DNA of 24,330 bases, taken from positions 1 through 24,330 of IMG/VR virus record IMGVR_UViG_3300027906_000150; one strand, 5' to 3'. The DNA is from a virus. Position numbers and translations under genes: made by a program. Within the stretch, counting starts at the first letter, position 1. The number at the start of each line of letters is the position of its first letter. The notes beneath the pieces are model-generated. The model was given only the letters and a program-made list of their open reading frames with translations, had not been told where the DNA came from and made no database searches. Below, piece after piece: positions 11,959 to 24,088 of the stretch.

Positions 11959-14900
11959 ATGGCAGATTTTAGACTCGGCAGACTGAAGTTTAAGTGGCGT
12001 GGCGATTGGGCTACGAGCACTGCTTACGTCATTGATGACATTATTAAGTATGGTGGCAACACATACGTGTGTACAATTAACCACACTTCAGCAGATTCAG
12101 TAGCAGGTTTCTATACTGATGAAGGTGGTAGCAAATGGGATCTTCATACTGAAGGTAATGTTGATACAGGAGCATGGGCTTCATCTACTTACTACAAATT
12201 AAATGATATAGTTAAGTATGGTAATATTGTTTATCGTACAACAACTGCACATAGTTCTAGTTCATCATTTGATCCTACTCAATTTACTGTTTATCTTGAA
12301 GGTCTTAATTTTGAAGATAATTGGGATCCTAATGCCGAGTATCAGAAGGGAGACGTTGTAACCTATAAGGGTTATAGTTATATTTCTAAAGGAATTCATA
12401 CTACTGCTACAACTCCTAATGTAGACACAACCAATTGGGAAGTATTAACAACTGGTTTCTCTGCTGAAGGTGAATATGTCGGAGCAACAACATACGCCCC
12501 AGGTGATGTTGTAAGATATGGTGGTAATACATTTGTAAACATTGTAGGTTCTACTGGTGTTGCTCCTACTAATACTGGTAATTGGAAATTACTCAGTGAA
12601 GGTTTAAGTTGGACAGGTAACTGGGATGCTGGTACTGTTTATCAGAAAGGTCATGTTGTTAATAGAAACTCCAACTCATATGTTTGTAAAGCAGATGACG
12701 TAACTGGTGCTGCTACTGCTCCTGAATTAGATCCAAACGGTGCATATTGGAATTACGTTGCACAGGGTGGTGACACTGCACAAGTTCTCCAAGACACTGG
12801 AGACCTTCTCTATCAGGCAGCAAGTGGTGTTAATAGAATTGCACTACCAACAGGGTCTACAGGTACAGCAGCGGAGCAAGCAGAAGCATCTGGTCAGATT
12901 CTAACTGTTGGTGGTTCTCCACTACTTCCAAATTGGGAGAGAAATAATGTAACTGATAGTGTTTATTATGTTACTAAGGATGGATCTGATGCTAACAGTG
13001 GTAGAAATATCTCTAGAGGTTTTGCTTCACTAAGACATGCTTGTGATACTATCGGAGCATTATCTGGTAATCTCAAGCCATCTGCTGGAAATCCAATTAC
13101 AATTTTTGTTAAAGCAGGTGAGTATCAAGAACAACTTCCAATCCTTGTTCCTGAGCATGTTTCAATTATCGGTGACAACCTAAGAACTTCTGTTCTTAAG
13201 CCTGCTCCTGGTTCTTCTGATATGCAAGCATTAGTACTTGCAACTAGTGTAAATCATCTTAAGTTTGGTGATACTGTTTGGAACGATGCTGGCACTAAGA
13301 GTGCTATGGTTCTAGATTCTGATTATGCAAATAATGTTCATCTACTTAATTTAACAGGTGGAGCATGGACTACTGGTGATAAGTACCTTGATCTTGTTAG
13401 CAATATTGCTTCAGATGGTTCTTCATTACTTACAGCAAACAAGACATTTATTGCTCATAATGCATATCATCAACATGTAAATGATGATGGTGCTGTAACT
13501 GGAGATGAATCAACAGTTAAGACTCGTCTTACTGAGTTAGTTGAAGCTATTGCATTCAACATTAAGCATGGTTCTAACAATAAAGTTTATGAGTATACTC
13601 AAGCTTTAGTTGGTGGTACTGCAATTACAGGAAATAATACTCAGGATACTACTCTTCTTACATATCTTGCTGCTGCCGCACAAGATTGTGCAAGCAATGT
13701 ATCAGTAGCAGTCGCATCAGGTAATACTGAGTCTCAAACAATTGACGCAACACTTACTGCTGATACTAATAATCCTAAGTGTCCTACTGTAAGATCTGCT
13801 ATTAATACACATGTAAACTTTGTTACTGCTGCTATTGCTCTTGGGGGCATGGGTAATTCTGGTGTTATACAAGAACCTTTTATCTCAATATCTTCAGCAG
13901 GTACTCGTGATAATGATGAATCTACATTCTGTCTATTAGGTTCACACACTACTCTTAATGATCTAGTGTTTGAAGGAATGAGTGGATTTGTTCCTTCTGG
14001 TTCTGATGATAAGGACATGGATACCGCTACAGTTAAGGGTGTCTTCTTTAGATTTAATCCTAACTCATCTGTTCAGAAATCACCATATATTCAAAACTGT
14101 ACAATCTTTGGTAGTGCAGCAGTTGGTGTTCTTCTTGATGGTGCGGTACATGCTCATTACAATCTATCGTCAAGTCCGTCTTATAAGACAATGGTGTTTG
14201 ACTCCTTCACTCAAGTCCTAGACGGTGGTGTTGGTTTCTATGTTACTAACGGTGCTGCAACTGAGATTGTATCATCCTTCACATACTACGCACATATTTC
14301 TTACACCTGTACACGTGGTGGTAGAATTCGTGGTGTTACTGGTAACTCATCTTACGGTAAGTACGGTGCAATTGCTAGAGGATTTGATACTACTGAAACA
14401 ACCATTGATGGTAATGTTAAAGGTCTTCGTCTTTCACTTGATAAGAATGCAGATAATTTCCCAATCTCAAGTGGTCTTCAGATCGGAGAATATCTTGTTG
14501 GACAAACATCAGGTGCTGTTGGTGAATTAAGAAATGACCAGTCTAACTCTGGATATCTTTATTACTTCCCAGTTAAGGGAACATTCACACAAGGTGAAGA
14601 TGTAACATCCCAGACATCTAATATTACAGGAACACTTGTAAACAATACAGATGCTGTTAGTGGACAAAAAGGTTTTGCTCTCGTTGTTACTGGTTTAACA
14701 ACTGGTCCTGACGCTGGTGGTTCTGTTGAACTAGTAGATAATGGTGTTAACGATGACTCTGGTTCATATGTTATTACCAGCTCTAGTTATGATGCTCCAG
14801 ATGGACGTGGTACTTTAGTTGTTGCTGCTAGAGGTGCTTTAGGAACTTCTGCTGCTGCACAGTCTGGTACTGATGATATTGACCACTTTAAGGAAAATAT

Positions 14901-16401
14901 TAACGGAACTTCAACATCTCTTACTGCTGGAATAACTTCTAGTGATGGTCCTACTTTCAATATTAATATTGATAGTACAAATGGAATGGTCTCTAGTGGT
15001 TACGTTGTTATTAATAATGAGATGTTCCTCATTACTCAGTTCTTTGGATCAACTCAGATTGAAGTTACTAGAGCACAAGAAGGAACTGTTGCAGGAAACC
15101 ATAATGTTGGTGATGCTGTAACTATCTTTGATCCTCCTGCAAGAGGTCAAGATAAGTTGATTGAAGATGTTAATAATACTAGCACTTCCTTCCGTGTTAA
15201 AGCTGCGAATGTTGCATTCGGTGTTAATGACTTAATTAAGATTGGTAGTGAGTTTGGTAAATTAACTGCTGTAACTCCAGACACAACTGGTATTACATCA
15301 TTCTTATTTGCTGATGAGAAAGTTGTTGCTGCTGGTGATGGACAGGAATTCAAGACTCGTTATCGTTACTCTCAAGTTCGCTTGACTGCTCACGACTTCT
15401 TGGATGTTGGTACTGGAAGTAAAGCTAATACTAATTGGCCTGGTCTTCCACTTTCACCAAATATTCCTTCACAGGAAACCAGCGAAGATCGCCCAGGTCG
15501 TGTTTACTACGTATCTACTGACCAAGATGGTAACTTCTCTGTTGGTAAGTACTTTAGGGTTGAACAGGCAACTGGTAAGGCAACCTTGGATGCTACAGCG
15601 TTCAACTTGGATGGTCTATCAACATTGAGATTGGGTGCTATTGGTGCTCAGTTAGGTGCTACTATTAACGAGTTCTCAACTGATGGAACTCTATCTCAAA
15701 ATAGTCCTAACAAATGTCCTACACAGTCTGCTGTTAAGACATATGTTGATGGTTTAAGTGCTGTTGTAGGAGACTTTAGTATTGCTGGAAACTTGACAGT
15801 TAAAGGTACTACAACTTCTGTTAACTCAGTTACTTTAACTTCTAAGGATCGCAACATTGAATTGGGTACTGTTGCTGTTGGTGCATTTACTGGTGACATT
15901 GCTGCTTCAGCTGCAACTATCACAAATGTAAGTGATACAACCAATATTGCTCCTGGTGTTGAAATAACAATTTCTTCTGGAAATGGAACAGTTACTGGTC
16001 CTTCTAACCACAGAGTTTTAAGTATTTCTGGTACTACTGTAACCTTAGATCAGACCTTTGGTGGAAGTGGAACTGCTACATCAGTTTCGTTTGCAACAAC
16101 TGGTGCAACAGATGTTACCGCCGATGGAGGTGGACTTACAATTAAGGGAGATTCCGACAAGACACTTTTGTGGGATAACATCTCTAATAGCTTTGATTTC
16201 AACCAAGGTGTTAACCTTGAAACTGGATTAGAATTTACGATTGGTGACACTAGTGTTCTAAGTGCAACTACTGTTCTTGGTAAAACTATTGAAACTGATT
16301 TCAGTTCAAAAGATGATAGTAAAATCCCAACAGTGAAAGCTGTTACTGATTACGTTGCAAATGCAGTGACAGCTGCTACTTTCTTTGCATCTGCAATATA
16401 A
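11959..16401 (+). CDS. Large fibre with sugar-binding-like repeats and pectin-lyase-like region (1480 aa)
   Basis: ATG 11959 has AGGA 9 nt upstream. Residues about 13-268 hold five repeats of some 50 residues of the form W/Y-x-x-x-x-x-Y-x-x-x-D-h-V-x-Y-x-G-x-x-Y ... W-x-x-L-x-x-G (for example YQKGDVVTYKGYSYISKG), resembling small carbohydrate-binding modules of the CBM5/12 (chitin-binding type 3) kind. A fibre linker follows (SGQILTVGGSPLLPNW). Residues about 332-810 start with VYYVTKDGSDANSG and ITIFVKAGEYQEQLPILVPE, the signature of right-handed beta-helix (pectin-lyase-like) proteins. The C-terminal part has FSTDGTLSQNSPNKCPTQSA-VKTYVDG and ends IPTVKAVTDYVANAV, two fibre-type trimerisation segments. 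It probably forms a trimeric fibre or tailspike-like protein; I see no proven catalytic residue, so sugar binding is likelier than cleavage. Confidence 0.75.
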   Translation: MADFRLGRLKFKWRGDWATSTAYVIDDIIKYGGNTYVCTINHTSADSVAGFYTDEGGSKWDLHTEGNVDTGAWASSTYYKLNDIVKYGNIVYRTTTAHSSSSSFDPTQFTVYLEGLNFEDNWDPNAEYQKGDVVTYKGYSYISKGIHTTATTPNVDTTNWEVLTTGFSAEGEYVGATTYAPGDVVRYGGNTFVNIVGSTGVAPTNTGNWKLLSEGLSWTGNWDAGTVYQKGHVVNRNSNSYVCKADDVTGAATAPELDPNGAYWNYVAQGGDTAQVLQDTGDLLYQAASGVNRIALPTGSTGTAAEQAEASGQILTVGGSPLLPNWERNNVTDSVYYVTKDGSDANSGRNISRGFASLRHACDTIGALSGNLKPSAGNPITIFVKAGEYQEQLPILVPEHVSIIGDNLRTSVLKPAPGSSDMQALVLATSVNHLKFGDTVWNDAGTKSAMVLDSDYANNVHLLNLTGGAWTTGDKYLDLVSNIASDGSSLLTANKTFIAHNAYHQHVNDDGAVTGDESTVKTRLTELVEAIAFNIKHGSNNKVYEYTQALVGGTAITGNNTQDTTLLTYLAAAAQDCASNVSVAVASGNTESQTIDATLTADTNNPKCPTVRSAINTHVNFVTAAIALGGMGNSGVIQEPFISISSAGTRDNDESTFCLLGSHTTLNDLVFEGMSGFVPSGSDDKDMDTATVKGVFFRFNPNSSVQKSPYIQNCTIFGSAAVGVLLDGAVHAHYNLSSSPSYKTMVFDSFTQVLDGGVGFYVTNGAATEIVSSFTYYAHISYTCTRGGRIRGVTGNSSYGKYGAIARGFDTTETTIDGNVKGLRLSLDKNADNFPISSGLQIGEYLVGQTSGAVGELRNDQSNSGYLYYFPVKGTFTQGEDVTSQTSNITGTLVNNTDAVSGQKGFALVVTGLTTGPDAGGSVELVDNGVNDDSGSYVITSSSYDAPDGRGTLVVAARGALGTSAAAQSGTDDIDHFKENINGTSTSLTAGITSSDGPTFNINIDSTNGMVSSGYVVINNEMFLITQFFGSTQIEVTRAQEGTVAGNHNVGDAVTIFDPPARGQDKLIEDVNNTSTSFRVKAANVAFGVNDLIKIGSEFGKLTAVTPDTTGITSFLFADEKVVAAGDGQEFKTRYRYSQVRLTAHDFLDVGTGSKANTNWPGLPLSPNIPSQETSEDRPGRVYYVSTDQDGNFSVGKYFRVEQATGKATLDATAFNLDGLSTLRLGAIGAQLGATINEFSTDGTLSQNSPNKCPTQSAVKTYVDGLSAVVGDFSIAGNLTVKGTTTSVNSVTLTSKDRNIELGTVAVGAFTGDIAASAATITNVSDTTNIAPGVEITISSGNGTVTGPSNHRVLSISGTTVTLDQTFGGSGTATSVSFATTGATDVTADGGGLTIKGDSDKTLLWDNISNSFDFNQGVNLETGLEFTIGDTSVLSATTVLGKTIETDFSSKDDSKIPTVKAVTDYVANAVTAATFFASAI

Positions 16402-16456: not shown

Positions 16457-16768
16457 ATGGCTTCAGGAATTTATGGAAGATCTGACTTAACTGCTAACTC
16501 TTGGACAGAGATTGCATCTCCTCCAGGATCAGGTATTAAGGTCACAACGATCAATATCACAAATCGTACCGATGCTTCTAAAAAAGTACGTATCGGTCTT
16601 GCTTCAAGTACATCTGTTAATGATACTGATGTAATTGAATATGATGTAGTTATTCCAGCAAACGGAGTACTTGAGAGAACAGGTATTGTTCTTGATTCAT
16701 CTAACGGACTTTATGCATACTCTAATGCAGCTGGATGCACAGCAATTGCTTGGGGTCTAGACGGCTAA
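16457..16768 (+). CDS. Small beta-sandwich virion protein (103 aa)
   Basis: ATG 16457 has GGAG 8 nt upstream and its own perfect late promoter. The chain is a compact beta domain: it opens GIYGRSDLTANSWTEIASPP, has VTTINITNRTDASKKVRIGL in the middle, IEYDVVIPANGVLERTGIVL near residue 60, and ends SNAAGCTAIAWGLDG. This layout (a strand with V-x-x-I-x-x-x-N-R followed by I-E-Y-D ... L-E-R-T-G-I) occurs in short proteins encoded next to tail-fibre genes in many marine phages. No enzyme motif is present. The strong promoter and ribosome binding site suggest high copy number, and its placement directly upstream of the adhesin-like cassette suggests a base or decoration for it. That role is inference. 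Confidence 0.7.
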   Translation: MASGIYGRSDLTANSWTEIASPPGSGIKVTTINITNRTDASKKVRIGLASSTSVNDTDVIEYDVVIPANGVLERTGIVLDSSNGLYAYSNAAGCTAIAWGLDG

Positions 16769-16805: not shown

Positions 16806-18341
16806 ATGGCACGAAAGTTAACCGAAATACCAGCAATCTCTGCTAAACGGACAGAAGACCCTTATCTTCAGCCAGCGTTTTCACTATACACTTTGCACTA
16901 TAGTTGGGGTGGTGGTTATTACACATATGACCATAACTTTAATTTAGTTAATCAACACTATGGTGATGGTGATGGTTCTTACGGTGAGTTCAGAACGTAT
17001 ACTACGGCTGCTAGGGACTTTTACGAGGATATGAACAGTTATGAAGACGTAAGAACTAACAGTTATCCAGGTTCTTCATATAGCTATATGGGTAGTAGTA
17101 CAAACTTCAATGGGTATGGGGGTCATCAATCTCATTCTAGTGCTGTTGCTTCTTCTAATGGTGGTATTGAACCAGGATGTATGTCTTGTAGGTCATCTGG
17201 TTATGACAGAAGAGCTTATTTTAATAGAGACGTTTCTACAATACCTGGACATCCACATCAAGATTTTGCTATTTGTACTGAGCATGGTTCAAGTTCAGGA
17301 TGTAAGTTTTGGGTTGGACCACGTTCCATGAACATTTATTATTCTCAACATTACCAAAATGGTAGTGATTCTTGGTGTTATGTTCCCCTCAAAACATTAG
17401 GCACTTCTGGATATGGAACATGTTCTTGGAATTACAAGAATAATAAGTTCGTTCAAATGGAATGTGATGGTGGTGGTACTTGGAAACCAACAGTTTGGAG
17501 TAACTGTCCTGATTTTAGAAAGTATGCTTTAGAAGGTAATAGAACATATATTTCAAAGCAAGAACAATATTCTGCATATGGTAGTCAGACTCATGACTTA
17601 AATGATTACTTCCAAACTAGTGCTAATGCTGATAGTACGACTTATGAGCAATTCGCTTTCCAGAGTTCACCTCAAGGATATTCTAATGCATCAGAGGCAC
17701 ATTATAGAGGAGTTGTTGTTCTCTGTGATAATGATAAGATCGTTATGTTTACTTGCCATCCTGGTTATACTGGAACAGGTGGATTTAGTTGTGTAAGATG
17801 GAATGCTAGTGGACAGGTTGAAACTGGAGGGACAAATCCACAACCAACTTCTAATCATCAACTATTCCACAAGTGGCAAAGTAGTTGGACTCATTATGGA
17901 TATGAAAATGGTACTCATTTAGGTATAAGATGGCAGATGTCATCTGATGGTAAGTATGTTTGGGCGTATTGTAGTGAGTATTACTGGGGTGCTGGAGCTT
18001 ATTGGGGATGCTGTAGAGTATCTGATGGTAAGGTTATATTCTGGAATATGGATGATTCAAATTATGGATATTCTTTCCTTCCAGTTGGAAAATCTTCAAT
18101 GATGGTATTCCATCAATGGGATACTGATGGTGGTCAAGGTGCTTATCATAAGATGCATGATTTAGATTTATGGTTTAATAATAGAGATGATGCACATGAC
18201 TGGGGTGCTACTGCTAAGAATCAGTATTATTCAAGATATTTTGAAGCTGGTGGAGCAAATAGTAGTTCGTATTACATAGCAATACCTGCTCATTATGATA
18301 CTTCTTTATTCCAAAAACCCCAGATTAATGAATTTGAGTAA
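16806..18341 (+). CDS. Adhesin-like protein A, probable beta-propeller (511 aa)
   Basis: Starts MARKLTEIPAISAKRTEDPY and is exceptionally rich in Tyr, Trp, Gly, Ser and Cys. Repeated blade-like segments can be traced: GGGYYTYDHNFNLV (about 35), DFAICTEHGSSSGCKFWVGP (about 153), NYKNNKFVQMECDG (about 211) with KPTVWSNCPDFRKY, VVVLCDNDKIVMFTCHPG (about 303) with FSCVRWNASG, SSDGKYVWAYC (about 379) with CCRVSDGKVIFWN, and FLPVGKSSMMVFHQWDTDGG (about 424). These strand pairs separated by SDG/DN turns are what one expects of a beta-propeller. The chain ends YDTSLFQKPQINEFE. The gene starting at 18934 encodes a homologue with the same order of segments. Paired with the 179-aa gene 19 nt downstream, it is probably a virion surface or receptor-binding protein; no name is known to me. 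Confidence 0.7.
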   Translation: MARKLTEIPAISAKRTEDPYLQPAFSLYTLHYSWGGGYYTYDHNFNLVNQHYGDGDGSYGEFRTYTTAARDFYEDMNSYEDVRTNSYPGSSYSYMGSSTNFNGYGGHQSHSSAVASSNGGIEPGCMSCRSSGYDRRAYFNRDVSTIPGHPHQDFAICTEHGSSSGCKFWVGPRSMNIYYSQHYQNGSDSWCYVPLKTLGTSGYGTCSWNYKNNKFVQMECDGGGTWKPTVWSNCPDFRKYALEGNRTYISKQEQYSAYGSQTHDLNDYFQTSANADSTTYEQFAFQSSPQGYSNASEAHYRGVVVLCDNDKIVMFTCHPGYTGTGGFSCVRWNASGQVETGGTNPQPTSNHQLFHKWQSSWTHYGYENGTHLGIRWQMSSDGKYVWAYCSEYYWGAGAYWGCCRVSDGKVIFWNMDDSNYGYSFLPVGKSSMMVFHQWDTDGGQGAYHKMHDLDLWFNNRDDAHDWGATAKNQYYSRYFEAGGANSSSYYIAIPAHYDTSLFQKPQINEFE

Positions 18342-18360
18342 CATCTAATAGGATAAACTA

Positions 18361-18900
18361 ATGGCTTTTTTCGCATTTAATAAAAAACTTAACATTGTAG
18401 AATCATCACCTTATCCAACTGCTGATGATGTACCTACTCCAATAGACGCTCCAGGCTGTTCTAATCGTCATGATTTTGAAAGTGTTGTTGTTCTTGAATA
18501 TCCAGGATTTGATCCTGAAGTTGATTATGTCAATTGTATCAGAATTAATGCTGCTGGAACTGCTTTAGAAAATCCTGAAAAGGATAAGTCTTTTGAAGAT
18601 CAAAAATCTTCAGATGCAACATATAGAGATTCTTTAGCATTGAAAACTGAAAGACTGTTGAAGAGACAACAAATTAGAAGTGAATGTGCTAATCTCATAA
18701 AGGAAACTGCATGGGAAGATATCAGAGCAGGAGATAATGATATTACTAATGGTAATGATGCTGCTATCAGAGCTTTATATCAAAAAAGACAAAATATGAG
18801 AGATCAAAGTAATGTTGCTGAAGCTGCATTAATGGCTTTTAATACATTACAAGAAGCTAAAGACTATAGTGCTGCTTCAAAAAATTGGTATACACCTTAA
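18361..18900 (+). CDS. Helper-like protein of adhesin A, helical C-terminus (179 aa)
   Basis: ATG 18361 has AGGA 7 nt upstream, 19 nt after adhesin A. Residues 1-75 are beta-type and acidic (MAFFAFNKKLNIVESSPYPT; VVVLEYPGFDPEVDYVNCIR). Residues about 85-170 are a long charged helical region (TERLLKRQQIRSECANLIKE, TAWEDIRAGDND, YQKRQNMRDQSNVAEAALMA), ending YSAASKNWYTP. The I-K-E-T-A-W-x-D-x-R-A-G-D segment resembles the A-E-T-D-W segment in the helical C-terminus of many tail-fibre assembly proteins. The gene starting at 20483 encodes a protein of nearly the same size and layout behind adhesin B. I infer a dedicated chaperone or connector for the adhesin. It could instead be a virion component. 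Confidence 0.6.
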   Translation: MAFFAFNKKLNIVESSPYPTADDVPTPIDAPGCSNRHDFESVVVLEYPGFDPEVDYVNCIRINAAGTALENPEKDKSFEDQKSSDATYRDSLALKTERLLKRQQIRSECANLIKETAWEDIRAGDNDITNGNDAAIRALYQKRQNMRDQSNVAEAALMAFNTLQEAKDYSAASKNWYTP

Positions 18901-18903
18901 TTA

Positions 18904-18911
18904 GATAAATA
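18904..18911 (+). promoter_or_regulatory. Possible late promoter box GATAAATA
   Basis: GATAAATA lies just after the stop of the 179-aa gene and 22 nt before ATG 18934, and matches NATAAATA. GAAGGA at 18917-18922 follows as ribosome binding site. It would let the second cassette copy be expressed on its own. Confidence 0.55.
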
Positions 18912-18933
18912 CACACGAAGGATAAAAAATACA

Positions 18934-20445
18934 ATGGCAAGGACTCTTACAAGAACCGCTACGGTTTCAACCAAAAAAACAAAAAATCCCTGGCAACAGC
19001 CTTGCATGGCCGTATATACTATGGAATATGGTACTTATGGTGGTGGGTACACCCTGTTTGATCACAATATGAACAATATTGGATTCAAGATGGGTGATGG
19101 TGGATACGCTTACAACAGCTATAGAACTTATACTTCATATGCTCCTGAATTTCACCAGAATTATGCAAGTTCTGATTACTTAAATACTCAATCTTATCCT
19201 TCAAGTAGTAGTAATTATGCCAACAACACTTGCTATGTTGGTTACTTGGGTAATATGTTCCATGCCAGTGTTACTCCAAATTCCACAGAACCTGGATGGC
19301 CTCATGTTGATGATGCTGGATACTATGGAAAAGCTAGAGGGTTTAGAGATGTGTGTTCTGTTCCCAGTGAGTTAACTCAAGATTATGCTATTTTCCTTCA
19401 ATCAAATGGTACTAGTAGTAGATTAAGGATTCTGAGTAGATCTGCCTTTAAATACTATCATCAATCAAATTGGGGTTGGGGTGGAATTGATATTCCATGT
19501 AAGCAGAATAGCGGTAATGCTAATGGAATGTATGGTTGTGGATCTTACAATCCTAAGATTAAGAAGTTCTGTGTTATGGAGAACTTCTCTGCTGATCAAT
19601 CATTTAGACATAAGCCAACTGTTTATGACAGTGTTCCTGATTTAAGAAAATATGGTAATGCTGATTCAGTTCATGCTGATTTACCAGACTCATATACAGG
19701 GCAAACTCAAATGCGTGGAACAATGCATGACTTCTTTTCCACAGCAGCAGGAAATTATGATGCGAATAGATACAATGAATATAATGTAAATAACCGTAAT
19801 GGTTCTGCTGAATCTAGTTGGAGAGGACAGTGTGTTCTTTGTGATAATGAAAGAATTGTATTATTCAGAACTACTAATGGTGGTAATAGTGGATATGTTA
19901 TTACCAGATGGAATGGACCAAATGAAGCTTCACAACCAGGAGAACATAATGGAGAGTGGATTTATAACTCCCTAGGTTGGAATCAGTATGGTTATGAGCA
20001 AGGTGAAAGATATGGTAGTAGATTCCAACAATCATCTGATGGTAGATATGTTTGGATGTATCATCATGCTTATTACTATGGTGCTGGATGCTATCTATGT
20101 GTAGTTAGAGTATCCGATGGTAAGGTAATTCATTGGAATGATCAAAGATCTGATCATAGTATGTGTCCTTTCCCTGTTGGTAAGAGTTCTATTGGAATAA
20201 TGCCTTCTTGGAATGCAGATAACCAAGGTGCTTGGTATAATATAATCAACCTAGATAAGATATTTGCCGAACAAAGTGATGGATCACAATACAACTTTGA
20301 AAGTGGTATGAACAGAAAATTACATGATGTTTGTGGAAACTCTACAAATTATCCTGTACTGGTTCCATCAATGTATGATACTTCACTATTCTCGGAACCA
20401 CATGTGGATGAATTTGCTCCACCTGATGTTAATTCTTTCATATAA
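18934..20445 (+). CDS. Adhesin-like protein B, paralogue of adhesin A (503 aa)
   Basis: GAAGGA lies 11 nt before ATG 18934. The protein follows adhesin A from end to end: MARTLTRTATVSTKKTKNPW at the start, GGGYTLFDHNMNNIG (about 36), QDYAIFLQSNGTSSRLRIL (about 149), NPKIKKFCVMENF (about 206) with KPTVYDSVPDLRKY, CVLCDNERIVLFRTTNGG (about 300) with YVITRWNGP, SSDGRYVWMYHHAYYYGAG (about 368), VRVSDGKVIHWN (about 392), FPVGKSSIGIMPSWNAD (about 413) and MYDTSLFSEPHVDEFAPP near the end. Segments at turns and strand ends are conserved while residues 50-140 have diverged strongly, as expected for surface loops under selection. Like A it is rich in Tyr, Trp, Gly and Cys, and lacks a signal peptide. 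A role as a second receptor-binding protein is inferred from paralogy, composition and the position before gp13. Confidence 0.7.
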   Translation: MARTLTRTATVSTKKTKNPWQQPCMAVYTMEYGTYGGGYTLFDHNMNNIGFKMGDGGYAYNSYRTYTSYAPEFHQNYASSDYLNTQSYPSSSSNYANNTCYVGYLGNMFHASVTPNSTEPGWPHVDDAGYYGKARGFRDVCSVPSELTQDYAIFLQSNGTSSRLRILSRSAFKYYHQSNWGWGGIDIPCKQNSGNANGMYGCGSYNPKIKKFCVMENFSADQSFRHKPTVYDSVPDLRKYGNADSVHADLPDSYTGQTQMRGTMHDFFSTAAGNYDANRYNEYNVNNRNGSAESSWRGQCVLCDNERIVLFRTTNGGNSGYVITRWNGPNEASQPGEHNGEWIYNSLGWNQYGYEQGERYGSRFQQSSDGRYVWMYHHAYYYGAGCYLCVVRVSDGKVIHWNDQRSDHSMCPFPVGKSSIGIMPSWNADNQGAWYNIINLDKIFAEQSDGSQYNFESGMNRKLHDVCGNSTNYPVLVPSMYDTSLFSEPHVDEFAPPDVNSFI

Positions 20446-20455
20446 TCATCAACCA

Positions 20456-20463
20456 TCTAAATA
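20456..20463 (+). promoter_or_regulatory. Weak late promoter box TCTAAATA
   Basis: TCTAAATA differs from TATAAATA at one position and lies 19 nt before ATG 20483, in the gap after adhesin B. With T4 spacing the transcript would begin near 20469, so only part of the AGGA at 20468-20471 would be in the leader. Weak support. Confidence 0.3.
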
Positions 20464-20482
20464 GTATAGGATTTGTAGAAAA

Positions 20483-21016
20483 ATGGCAAAATTTTTAAAA
20501 GTTTGTTTAATAGAACCAAGAAGTGTGGTTGCTGTCTATGACGAGAAACCAGACTACACAGATAGTGAGCATCATAAAATTGTTGCTTATAACTTTGATG
20601 ATTCAACTGAGGAACGTAAATCTTTAGTTGTAGCTGCTGATGGATCTGTAACTAACAAACATACAGGTAAATCTAAAGCAGAGCAACAAGCTTTAAATGC
20701 AGTAGAAGCTGTTGATTGGGTTATTGATGTTGAAAAAACAAAATTGAAAAAGAGAATTAATTCTAGAACTGTAGAAAAACTTGAAGCTATTGAATGGAAA
20801 ACTCAGAGGGCAAAGGAGCAAGATTATCTTGCTGGAACTACTGATAAATCAGCAGCAGTAGCAGCAGAGAAGAAAGCTATTAGAGATGAAGGAAATGCTC
20901 ATGAAGCAGGTGTAGATGCTTTAACAAATTTAACTGATGTTCAAGCATATAGTAATAAACCACCTACTTGGGGTAAAAATACTGAGTGGACAGGCATTAC
21001 TTGGGAGAATTCATAG
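20483..21016 (+). CDS. Helper-like protein of adhesin B, helical C-terminus (177 aa)
   Basis: ATG 20483 follows AGGA (20468-20471) with an 11-nt spacer. Residues 1-62 are beta-type (KFLKVCLIEPRSVVAVYDEK; HHKIVAYNFDDSTEERKSLV), then ADGSVTNKHTGKSKAEQQ leads into a helical region. Its motifs are VEKTKLKKRINSRTVEKLEA, IEWKTQRAKEQDYLAGTTDK and AAEKKAIRDEGNAHEAGVDA, ending AYSNKPPTW and a Trp-rich tail. Size, order of beta half and helical half, the W-x-x-x-R-A-x-x-x-D segment and the A-x-x-Y-S tail agree with the 179-aa protein behind adhesin A, though sequence identity is low. The two are probably diverged paralogues acting on their own upstream adhesin. The gene ends 53 nt before gp13, at the terminator-promoter junction. 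Confidence 0.6.
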   Translation: MAKFLKVCLIEPRSVVAVYDEKPDYTDSEHHKIVAYNFDDSTEERKSLVVAADGSVTNKHTGKSKAEQQALNAVEAVDWVIDVEKTKLKKRINSRTVEKLEAIEWKTQRAKEQDYLAGTTDKSAAVAAEKKAIRDEGNAHEAGVDALTNLTDVQAYSNKPPTWGKNTEWTGITWENS

Positions 21017-21033: not shown

Positions 21034-21041
21034 TATAAATA
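21034..21041 (+). promoter_or_regulatory. T4-type late promoter box TATAAATA of gp13
   Basis: A perfect TATAAATA. By T4 spacing the first transcribed base would be about 21047, giving a leader of about 23 nt before ATG 21070. The box overlaps the left arm of the hairpin annotated at 21037-21069. Confidence 0.8.
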
Positions 21042-21069
21042 CCCCTAGGAAACACTAGGGGTATTTTTT
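21037..21069 (+). terminator. Rho-independent terminator overlapping the gp13 promoter
   Basis: AAATACCCCTAG (21037-21048) pairs with CTAGGGGTATTT (21055-21066) over 12 bp, with loop GAAACA, followed by the remaining T residues up to 21069. It would stop transcripts arriving from the adhesin cassette. Its left arm contains most of the late promoter box. Its right arm contains AGGGG (21057-21061), which is the likely gp13 Shine-Dalgarno, 8 nt before ATG. Confidence 0.85.
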
Positions 21070-21885
21070 ATGGCTGAACCTGCCAGTAGATCCCAACTAA
21101 AAGATTATTGTTTGAGGAAGTTGGGGTTCCCAGTCCTAGAGATCAATGTTGATGACGATCAGATTGAGGACGCAATTGATGATGCTCTTCAATATTATCG
21201 TATGCGTCATTATGATGGCGTAGAGCTTGCATACATGAAGCATGTATTCACTGCTGATGATGAAACAAAATTTGATACTCAAGAGACTACAACTACTATA
21301 GGTAGTGGGGCAGCTGCTACAATATGGAAGACAAATGATAAGTACCTTGACCTTCCAGCAGATGTTGTTGGTGTATCTAAGGTATTTGGTCTTGCTAGTA
21401 ATGCTATAAGAAATAATCTTTTTGGTATTGAGTATCAGATTTTCTTAAATGACTTATATGCTGTAGGTTCTCTTGACTTTCTTAACTATTATATGGTTAA
21501 GACATGGATGGAAACTATGGATATGGTATTGAATAATGGTTCTTTTGTTCAATTTAGATTTAACATGAGACAAGATAGACTATACATTGATGTGGGTAAA
21601 GATATGTTGGATGAAGATGTTCATGTTATTGTTGAATGTCATAGAGCATTAGATCCAGATACATATACTCAAGTCTACAGTGATATATTTTTAAAGAAAT
21701 ATACTACTGCTCTTATTAAGAGACAGTGGGGTCAAAACTTAATTAAATTTAATGGCATACAACTTCCTGGTGGAGTTGCCATTAACGGAAGAGAGATCTT
21801 TGAAGATGCAGAAAAAGAAATTGCTGTTATTGAAGAAGCATCTACCAGTACATACGAATTACCACCATTTGACATGATCGGATGA
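21070..21885 (+). CDS. gp13: Neck (head completion) protein gp13
   Basis: The N-terminus MAEPASRSQLKDYCLRKLG, then PVLEINVDDDQIEDAIDDAL and QYYRMRHYDGVE, is the hallmark of the T4 gp13 family in T4-like cyanophages. The length of 271 aa is somewhat under T4 gp13 (309 aa). In T4, gp13 and gp14 form the neck that closes the filled head and offers the tail attachment site. Further conserved-looking stretches are DKYLDLPADVVGVSKVFGL (about 93), the NDLYAVGSLDFLNYYMVKTW region (about 132), and KKYTTALIKRQWGQNLIKF (about 214). The stop overlaps the gp14 start by 4 nt (ATGA), giving translational coupling. Its own late promoter and hairpin-sensitive ribosome binding site are described separately. 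Identification rests on sequence motifs plus synteny with gp14, gp15 and gp16. Confidence 0.93.
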   Translation: MAEPASRSQLKDYCLRKLGFPVLEINVDDDQIEDAIDDALQYYRMRHYDGVELAYMKHVFTADDETKFDTQETTTTIGSGAAATIWKTNDKYLDLPADVVGVSKVFGLASNAIRNNLFGIEYQIFLNDLYAVGSLDFLNYYMVKTWMETMDMVLNNGSFVQFRFNMRQDRLYIDVGKDMLDEDVHVIVECHRALDPDTYTQVYSDIFLKKYTTALIKRQWGQNLIKFNGIQLPGGVAINGREIFEDAEKEIAVIEEASTSTYELPPFDMIG

Positions 21886-23291
21886 AAAAAGTATATTTTC
21901 CCCAACATGGTGGTGTTGCCACCGAACAGAATCTTGTACAGGACTTGGTTGATGAACAAATCAAGTTGTTTGGATCTGATGTGTTTTATATTCCTAGAGT
22001 ACATCTTAAGGATAAAACATTGGGGGAAGTTATCCAATCTGAATTTAGTCAAAGTTATATGATTGAGATGTTCCTTGTGAATGTAGAAGGATTTGGTGCT
22101 GGTGCAGAGTTTGTAAGTAAGTTTGGTTTAAGAATAACAGATGAGATTAGTTTTGTTGTATCACGTAGAAGATGGGAACAGTCTGCTAATCCAGCGTTGA
22201 ATCTTGCTGTAGATGGCAGACCTAATGAAGGAGATTTAATCTACTTCCCATTAACAGAGGATCTATATGAGATTAAGTATGTTGAGCGAGAGAATCCTTT
22301 CTTCCAGTTAGGTAAACAGTATTTCTATCAACTCACTGCTGAGATCTACGAGCAGGGTGCTGATAAGTTTGATACAGGTATTGACGAAATTGATGATGTT
22401 GAAAGAGAATTTAGTAACATCACTACTCTTAATGTTGGTTTAACTACAAGAGAAACAGCAACTGGAACTCTTACTGTTGATTCTAATGGTAGTATAGCAT
22501 CTGTAAATGTAACTCTTGCTGGTACTGGATATAATACAGCACCTAGTGTTACTTTAGGAAACACTGGTAATGGTAGTGGAGGTATAATTGAAACTTCAAT
22601 TTCTGATGGTGGAGTAGTTTCATTGACTATTGTAGATGGAGGTTCCAATTATGATCCTAACAGTATACCAACTCTCACAATAGAATCTCCACCAGAAGCC
22701 ATTCATTTTACTACTGATGAACATGTTGTTATTGGTGGATTCACACAACAAGGTGGTGGAAGAAGTTGGACTTCAGATAATAATGTATCTACTGTAACAG
22801 CATTAGGTAGTTTTGATCCTATATTTGCTACTACTACACAAAAGAAATACTTCTATTGGAAATTTGAAGATAAAAGAATTTGTTATGTTTATACTTACAA
22901 TGGAACAAGTCCTACAACAGTACCTGGACATTTTTATTATGATGAAACTAATGTCAGATATATTATCAATACATACACAGATACTGATACAAGTGGATCC
23001 CAAGCAACGATGTATGATCTAATGAGTGCTACTATAGCAGAGGTAGCAGATTGGAATGGTGTTACAAATACACTAGAGGTCATGAACCGTACAGGTAACT
23101 TCCTTGATGGTGATATGATTAGAGGGGTTGAATCTAATGCCATATATACATTAGGGACATTCTCTACAATTGATAATGAGAGTACAGAGTGGGATCAAAA
23201 TGCTGCAATTGAAGATGGTGCAGATGAGTTGATTGATTGGGGAGAAAAGAATCCCTTTGGTGAATTTGGTAATTATACAGGTAGCTTCTGA
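21882..23291 (+). CDS. gp14: Neck protein gp14 with large insertion (469 aa)
   Basis: Residues 1-165 match the T4 gp14 plan: LVQDLVDEQIKLFGSDVFYI (T4: LVAESIQMRGVECYYV), FGLRITDEISFVV, NEGDLIYFPLTEDLYEIKYV and NPFFQLGKQYFYQLTAEIYE (T4: [28 protein letters not shown]). The C-terminus (GEKNPFGEFGNYTGSF) corresponds to the short acidic/aromatic end of T4 gp14. T4 gp14 has 256 aa, so some 200-240 residues are extra, mainly at about 190-430. The extra part includes two beta units at about 203-269 (IASVNVTLAGTGYNTAPSVT and VVSLTIVDGGSNYDPNS) and a Tyr-rich stretch (KKYFYWKFEDKRICYVYTYN). gp14 acts with gp13 in the neck. The start overlaps gp13 by 4 nt and the stop overlaps gp15 by 1 nt. Confidence 0.92.
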   Translation: MKKVYFPQHGGVATEQNLVQDLVDEQIKLFGSDVFYIPRVHLKDKTLGEVIQSEFSQSYMIEMFLVNVEGFGAGAEFVSKFGLRITDEISFVVSRRRWEQSANPALNLAVDGRPNEGDLIYFPLTEDLYEIKYVERENPFFQLGKQYFYQLTAEIYEQGADKFDTGIDEIDDVEREFSNITTLNVGLTTRETATGTLTVDSNGSIASVNVTLAGTGYNTAPSVTLGNTGNGSGGIIETSISDGGVVSLTIVDGGSNYDPNSIPTLTIESPPEAIHFTTDEHVVIGGFTQQGGGRSWTSDNNVSTVTALGSFDPIFATTTQKKYFYWKFEDKRICYVYTYNGTSPTTVPGHFYYDETNVRYIINTYTDTDTSGSQATMYDLMSATIAEVADWNGVTNTLEVMNRTGNFLDGDMIRGVESNAIYTLGTFSTIDNESTEWDQNAAIEDGADELIDWGEKNPFGEFGNYTGSF

Positions 23292-24088
23292 TGTTAGGAA
23301 CACAATTTTATAATCAAGCAGTTAGAAAAACTGTTATAGCATTTGGTACTCTTTTCAATAATATTGAATTGAAGAAGACTGTTGACGGACAAGTATTAGA
23401 GGTTGAAAAAGTTCCTCTTGCTTATGGTCCAAAACAAAAGTTTTTATATAGACTTCAAGGTAATCCTACCGATGGTAAAAAGGTGGCAATTACTTTACCA
23501 AGAATTTATTTTGAAATGACTGGTATTGATTATGATGCTGCTAGAAAAACTCCTGCTACCCAGAAATATAAAACAGTTGTTAATGAGGAAGGTAATGAGG
23601 TAAGAACTCAATATGTTCCTGTACCATATAATATATCATTTGAGGTTGGTATACTTGCTAAATCACAGGACGATGGATTACAGATATTAGAACAAATATT
23701 ACCATTTTTCCAACCATCATTTAGTATGAGTCTTAAGTTCATTCCAGATATGGATGAAGTTAGAGATGTTGCTGTTGTTTTAAACAGCGTTGATTTTGAT
23801 GATGATTGGGAAGATGATTTTAGTACAAGACGTAGTATAACTTATTCAATGCAGTTTACTGCTAAGTCTTACATCTACGGTCCATATAGTAAGGCAGATA
23901 TTATTCGTAAGTCTCGCATTATTGAAACTATTGGTGATCAGGATGTTGGTAAGAGAACTGTTGAGTTATCTTATACACCTAAAGCTAAAACAGATATTAA
24001 TCAAGATGGTCAGGTAGATGCAGCAGATGATCTCCTAGTAACTGCTGATGATGATTTTGGATTTAATGAGGGGATTAATTTCTTATGA
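23291..24088 (+). CDS. gp15: Tail terminator / sheath stabiliser gp15
   Basis: At 265 aa it matches the T4 gp15 length (272 aa). Shared landmarks are QFYNQAVRKTVIAFGTLFNN-IELKK at the N-terminus (T4: FYNSSFRRYATLMGDLFSNI), VPLAYGPKQKFLYRL, ITLPRIYFEMTGIDYDAARK, YVPVPYNISFEVGILAKSQD, ILEQILPFFQPSFS and FSTRRSITYSMQFTAKSYIY. In T4, gp15 is a hexamer that caps tail tube and sheath and joins the tail to the neck. Residues 235-246 are unusual: DINQDGQVDAAD has Asp/Asn at positions 1, 3, 5, 9 and 12 with Gly at 6, as in an EF-hand or dockerin-type calcium loop. The start shares a base with the gp14 stop, and the stop overlaps the gp16 start by 4 nt, so the three are one translational unit. Confidence 0.94.
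   Translation: MLGTQFYNQAVRKTVIAFGTLFNNIELKKTVDGQVLEVEKVPLAYGPKQKFLYRLQGNPTDGKKVAITLPRIYFEMTGIDYDAARKTPATQKYKTVVNEEGNEVRTQYVPVPYNISFEVGILAKSQDDGLQILEQILPFFQPSFSMSLKFIPDMDEVRDVAVVLNSVDFDDDWEDDFSTRRSITYSMQFTAKSYIYGPYSKADIIRKSRIIETIGDQDVGKRTVELSYTPKAKTDINQDGQVDAADDLLVTADDDFGFNEGINFL

Follow-up and report, generated by a model that had tools for sequence, protein, structure and literature searches.

Fibres and receptor-binding proteins whose gene is followed by one for a chaperone are an established kind of phage module, described for T4 37/38, Mu S/U, R-type pyocins, V22, A5, and Pam3 (PMC7289586, PMC10579305, PMC9608196). For marine T4-like phages, both pelagimyophages and cyanomyophages, a variable host-recognition cluster has also been described (PMC7029224). 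Here we analyze a stretch of viral DNA of 24,330 nucleotides (nt), positions 1 to 24,330 of the virus record IMGVR_UViG_3300027906_000150 (the window), with a cassette of four + strand genes in which a large gene (L) followed by a small gene (S) occurs twice. The first pair consists of L1 (16806..18341; 511 amino acids [aa]), a probable receptor-binding protein, and S1 (18361..18900; 179 aa), its probable dedicated assembly chaperone; the second consists of their paralogues L2 (18934..20445; 503 aa) and S2 (20483..21016; 177 aa). The four open reading frames, their sizes, and the offsets between the starts of the copies (2128 and 2122 nt) are exactly those given in an earlier note on this DNA.

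Comparison with the cyanobacterial myophage Pam3 illustrates both the likeness to known modules and its limits. The fibre-type gene gp24 of Pam3 is followed by a small gene, gp25, whose product (162 aa, compared with 177-179 aa for S) has a beta-sandwich at residues 1-55 and a helical part at 64-162, an order of beta N-terminal and helical C-terminal parts also predicted for S, though for its beta part only tentatively (PMC9608196). However, Pam3 has a single pair, gp25 shows no detectable sequence similarity to S (no match to PDB sequences at an expect value [E] of 10), and the Pam3 client is a TNF-like, Gly-rich trimer, whereas L is propeller-like in a low-confidence model. The Alteromonas phages V22 (gp26/gp27) and A5 (gp8/gp9) similarly encode a marine receptor-binding protein and, directly downstream of it, a chaperone that is essential or has a capping role (PMC7289586, PMC10579305), but again as a single pair, and their chaperone has a DUF4376-type C terminus and a beta-hairpin tentacle, a Pfam family to which S has no match. 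Several diverged receptor-binding proteins per virion, with their genes side by side, are found in the branched tail spike complexes of Ackermannviridae (PMC11414711, PMC8432352), although these are tail spikes of a different family with N-terminal docking domains and no dedicated small gene after each. A sugar-binding propeller head might be shared with the receptor-binding proteins phi11 Gp45, PRD1 P2, and phiKZ gp131 (PMC4901313) and with PLL/PHL lectins; none of these resembles L in sequence, and the fold of L comes from the low-confidence model.

The layout itself has a counterpart in genes 084-087 of S-MbCM7 (Synechococcus phage ACG-2014h), which lie in the same slot between tail fibre and gp13 and encode two tandem adhesin-like proteins (44% identical) with a small gene after each. 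The families there are unrelated to L and S (phrog_1325), and BLAST gave no homology between the two small genes. At contig L048 (5844-9714), three adhesin-like, Gly-rich proteins in tandem, each about 340 aa long, precede gp13, with small genes between them (152 and 91 aa, 36% identical over 78 aa). The tandem adhesin-plus-small plan is therefore not unique, occurring with unrelated families at the same locus in S-MbCM7 and in three copies in L048; with fibre-chaperone pairs known besides, the earlier note's statement that no described system has this layout was too strong. What is new is the two protein families, with no relatives of L in Pfam, PHROGs, the PDB, or phage records, and the ancient duplication of both genes together, in an order that has stayed fixed.

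The evidence for that duplication begins with homology. BLASTP aligns L1 with L2 over their whole lengths (34% identity, 520 columns, E 5e-85), as expected from the earlier description of two large proteins alike throughout. A profile comparison had also been proposed, with absence of homology between the small proteins as a refuting outcome, and this outcome was not found. S1 and S2 of the window share 23% identity over 115 aa (E 4e-8), S pairs elsewhere reach E 7e-20 at locus L017 and 1e-13 to 1e-27 at most loci, and profile-profile comparison of 12 first-position with 12 second-position S proteins gives E 3.6e-39 (probability 99.96, 159 columns). By these sequence comparisons, the homology of first and second S copies is far beyond chance. 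The proposed division of S into a beta N-terminal half and a helical C-terminal half stood for its second part, as the AlphaFold2 (AF2) model of S2 contains a long helical hairpin with confident helices at 65-117 and 121-145; strands lie within residues 1-58, where the predicted local distance difference test (pLDDT) is below 50 up to residue 47, and the beta half is assigned tentatively.

Searches outside the family returned little. No relative of L was found in Pfam, PHROGs, PDB sequences, or 50,697 phage records, and tblastn with more distant L proteins gave no match either. Tail-fibre-assembly families in Pfam (Caudo_TAP/Tfa, DUF4376, and related) were unmatched at E 1 by 37 small proteins, and a fold search with the S2 model gave no significant viral match, with generic helical matches only in the PDB. 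A family without assigned function, phrog_26358, was matched weakly by 28 of the 37 small proteins; as control genomes matched it too, it was judged a weak and unspecific candidate relative and set aside. With L and S missing from Pfam and isolate records, and L also from PHROGs, metagenome annotation is at present blind to this locus.

The distribution of the cassette was surveyed with gp13 as anchor and then with L profiles across IMG/VR contigs, together with one scan of bacterial genomes. Early scans of viral contigs with two or four sequences gave contig L001 alone, and it was the diverged pair at L017, found by the gp13 survey, that opened the family, which profile searches of viral contigs have extended to 45 or more L members. 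The arrangement L-S-L-S, with gp13 after it on contigs long enough to reach it, is present in 26 contigs, the window and one from a Euryarchaeota bin among them; the shorter L-S-gp13 occurs in 18, two of which (L116 and L157) are cut just upstream, leaving at least 16 that are truly single; and two large genes share one small gene (L-L-S) at L115, L165, L167, and L169. Several contigs are near-identical; counting only loci less than 95% identical to one another, the first set comprises about 16 double and 8 single ones. In all pairs of the 26 double and at least 16 single loci, S follows L directly on the same strand after a spacer of a few to about 100 nt. The possibility that large genes occur mostly without a small partner, raised earlier as a danger to the proposal, was looked for in this survey and not found: every complete L has an S in its array, with L115-type loci sharing one S between two L. 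The bacterial genome scan gave a sole match, L146 (2968-7034), an L-S-L-S array on a 9.3-kb contig of a marine Euryarchaeota bin, which is probably a phage contig placed in the wrong bin.

More divergent matches to the L profile, of about 450-530 aa (E 1e-8 to 1e-45), tend toward two or three tandem copies; such multicopy relatives are found at L165, L167, L169, L173-L190, L195, L196, and L201. Other small partners are duplicated along with them, of 93-111 aa in L195, L196, and L201 and of 86-106 aa in L173, L178, L182, and L184. The latter share 44 columns with the S family of the window (hhalign score 32.9 versus at most 17.6 for shuffled columns). Judged from these partial matches, tandem multiplication of an L-type adhesin, usually with its partner, looks recurrent. 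It can be proposed, though we regard this broader view as doubtful, that L belongs to a new superfamily of adhesins of about 500 aa, missing from the records of cultured phages, that repeatedly and independently forms arrays of two or three copies, usually with their own partners, to build hetero-oligomers or specialized adhesins with copy-specific chaperones, and that the pair has become ancient and obligate in the clade of the window.

Phylogeny places the duplication early. An IQ-TREE analysis of 45 large proteins puts 15 first copies, together with a truncated one (L113), in one group and 15 second copies in another (support 87/95 and 84/89), and single-pair loci branch outside both. The two main L groups have moderate support, short of decisive; resolution is lower in the S tree, where the S copies at most loci still sort by position. 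Within the clade of the window the copies are 33-44% identical, all intact at 15 distinct loci, and invariant in order. One old duplication of the whole pair in the ancestor of the group, with the order fixed and both copies kept, is the simplest reading, and the earlier proposal of whole-pair duplication followed by divergence is thus upheld by the homology of both members, the single-pair outgroups, and the one old duplication at these 15 loci. Two loci have a further history. The two L copies of L094 group together, and topologies that place them with the first copies or with the second are rejected (approximately unbiased test, p 0.003 and 0.035); L094 was therefore duplicated again or homogenized. 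L115 represents another independent duplication.

When these results are placed into a functional context, we favor, with some reserve, the reading that L is a receptor-binding protein, that S is its own intermolecular assembly chaperone, and that the pair was duplicated and specialized. A fast-evolving receptor-binding protein and its chaperone would then have been duplicated as a unit in the ancestor of a group of marine T4-like cyanophages, which kept both. Both pairs would be expressed late; the beta-rich N-terminal part of S would hold its own L while L folds, and its helical C-terminal part would trimerize, as described for Pam3 gp25. L1 and L2 might be mounted as two different distal adhesins, through which the virion could contact two surface ligands or attach in two steps. 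Receptor binding by L, the chaperone role of S, trimers, two ligands, and a division of labor are all what we infer, counting in favor the homology of L1 with L2 and of S1 with S2, the fixed order, the cluster location, fast protein change, the layout of S (tentative beta part, then hairpin) like that of Pam3 gp25, and the propeller matches of L. Nearly all leading PDB matches of the L1 model are indeed beta-propellers (best Foldseek E 2e-5; VIA Z about 8, root mean square deviation 6-8 Å), including the fucose-binding lectins PLL/PHL and FleA and neuraminidases, and a propeller fold for L is possible and treated here as a lead from a low-confidence model.

Fast change of the cassette proteins is evident from comparison of the window with L001, where the orthologue of L1 is 75% identical. 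Nonsynonymous divergence (dN) is 0.185 for L1, 0.285 for S1, 0.176 for L2, and 0.166 for S2, compared with 0.023 for gp13 and 0.002 for gp14, so that the protein change of the cassette is 7-12 times that of gp13. Synonymous divergence (dS) differs far less (0.48-0.75 for the cassette, 0.27 for gp13, and 0.16 for gp14), and dN/dS of cassette genes in close pairs at other loci ranges from 0.1 to 1.0. Such fast change would fit host-facing parts and is not proof of positive selection.

Several observations weigh against the reading we favor. Neither L nor S has a sequence tie to any known adhesin or chaperone family (Pfam, PHROGs, PDB, phage records). The AF2 model of L1, built from an alignment of four sequences, is poor (mean pLDDT 38, predicted template modeling score 0.50), and profile comparison of putative blades found no internal blade repeat in L; one score between segments b6 and b7 was rejected as a repeat, since the segments overlap. 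Whereas the C-terminal half of Pam3 gp25 is the more conserved (PMC9608196), the two halves of S are about equally variable (column entropy 2.14 bits for the N-terminal and 2.07 for the C-terminal half). Fixed differences between L1 and L2 amount to just four columns, thin signs of specialization. Distances show no preference of L1 for S1 or of L2 for S2, all correlating at 0.89-0.97, and pairing specificity therefore lacks support from coevolution of each L with its own partner. Finally, S changes as fast as L, and in some close pairs dN/dS approaches 1.

This last point bears on a different role for S, that of a structural tip or cap, which would remain part of the virion and help to contact the receptor, like the gp38 adhesin (T2-type, S16) or Mu Tfa. 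An exposed part would be expected to evolve at least as fast as L, as S does (S1 compared with L1 above; dN/dS 0.9-1.0 in some close pairs), and chaperones retained on the virion are described for Mu and Ur-lambda (PMC9608196). We consider this role unlikely, as S is a predicted helical hairpin in which no Gly-rich adhesin motifs are found, and a chaperone that tracks a changing client would also be expected to evolve fast. L1 and L2 could alternatively make up one obligate heteromeric adhesin, such as a mixed trimer or a two-layer tip, in which each subunit has its own chaperone and the duplication serves to build one complex rather than to give two specificities. The fixed order and number of copies at the 15 distinct loci, where no single-copy loss occurs within the clade, would suit such an assembly, as would the strong correlation of L1 and L2 distances (r 0.98; 0.92 in the close group). 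Linked genes correlate anyway, however, and close relatives manage with a single L, which leaves the heteromer about as improbable as a structural role for S.

A little less probable again is that L is no adhesin but a surface or neck-associated protein of the virion, be it a decoration, a collar, or a sugar-cleaving enzyme. Although neck genes lie next door and the fold matches include neuraminidase-type propellers, in related phages this slot is the host-recognition cluster (PMC7029224), fibrinogen-like or Gly-rich-like adhesin genes occupy it at other loci, and a partner S is present in the array of every complete L. Transient redundancy, in which recent tandem copies are kept by chance and await loss, seems very improbable: copy number does change, as copies 68-75% identical in the divergent relatives L195, L196, and L201 indicate, but copies as diverged as those in the clade of the window are intact at 15 loci, and the tree disfavors this explanation. 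Specialized adhesins with dedicated chaperones remain our preferred account, and the conservation of both copies suggests that the phage may keep two host-binding parts that are not interchangeable. Little is known of most receptor-binding proteins in uncultured marine cyanophages, whose host range shapes ocean photosynthesis. Through a conserved, recognizable locus with two ancient paralogues and matched helpers, one can ask directly what a phage gains from two related adhesins and whether chaperones are client-specific.

The spacers add regulatory detail. Late-promoter-like boxes, reported for them earlier, are present on the + strand before L2, S2, and gp13 and enriched there across loci, and absent from the window before L1 and S1. 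The S1-L2 spacer holds GATAAATA (18904..18911; ATAAATA at 18905), with a box in 6 of 16 nonredundant S1-to-L2 spacers (1.4 expected); the L2-S2 spacer holds CTAAATA (20457..20463), with a box in 11 of 17 spacers (1.5 expected); and between S and gp13, where the window has ATAAATA at 21035, a box occurs at 24 of 25 loci (0.8 expected). Across the whole window ATAAATA is not enriched (10 sites versus 8.8 in shuffles). Before gp13, the box TATAAATA is part of a boundary element (21034..21069, + strand) in which it overlaps a 12-bp hairpin (21037-21048 with 21055-21066) with a T run. The hairpin covaries: in 15 diverse loci 98.3% of cells are paired, and two pairs have changed on both sides. Box and hairpin precede gp13 at 40 of 109 gp13 loci, and the element is possibly a cassette terminator fused to a late promoter for gp13.

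The surroundings of the cassette, all on the + strand, are constant across loci. Upstream in the window lie a tail fibre protein of 1480 aa (11959..16401; phrog_9851 tail fiber, E 0, with five CBM_5_12 stretches) and, immediately 5' of the cassette, a conserved 103-aa protein (16457..16768) that is 34% identical to S-CAM3 gp160 and syntenic at double and single loci, where it measures 103-107 aa. Downstream lie gp13, the neck or head-tail adaptor (21070..21885; phrog_211), gp14, the head closure protein (21882..23291; phrog_460, E 1e-114), and gp15, the tail sheath stabilizer (23291..24088; phrog_227, E 3e-91). A variable block between this tail fibre and gp13-gp14-gp15, with other content in relatives, corresponds to the host-recognition cluster described for marine T4-like phages (PMC7029224), the setting in which our survey found single and double cassettes. 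At contig L015 (4507-9970), enzyme-like genes replace the cassette, by eye one flavin halogenase-like and one carbamoyltransferase-like, showing the content of the slot to be interchangeable.

Gene content also points to the host. The gp13 of the window shares about 60% identity with its S-CAM3 counterpart, the neck genes are nearest to those of cyanophages, and nucleotide-level matches of the window are almost all Synechococcus phages; on this evidence, the window is a piece of a T4-like cyanophage (Kyanoviridae-like) genome. The window is too short for psbA/psbD-type genes, two of which (Photo_RC) are present in a related record of 192.8 kb that has the same cassette, and a cyanobacterial host is therefore likely; the uncultured ocean phages with this cassette probably infect photosynthetic bacteria. 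The gp14 of the window has 469 aa, compared with 292 aa in S-CAM3, and its residues from about 200 to 276 also match the baseplate wedge profile phrog_2885, which suggests an inserted extra domain. A 111-aa protein at 1425-1760 matches phrog_3304 ('L-shaped tail fiber protein assembly'), with weaker matches to LtfC and BppU_N of Pfam, which suggests that it may be a second adhesin-type partner in the window.

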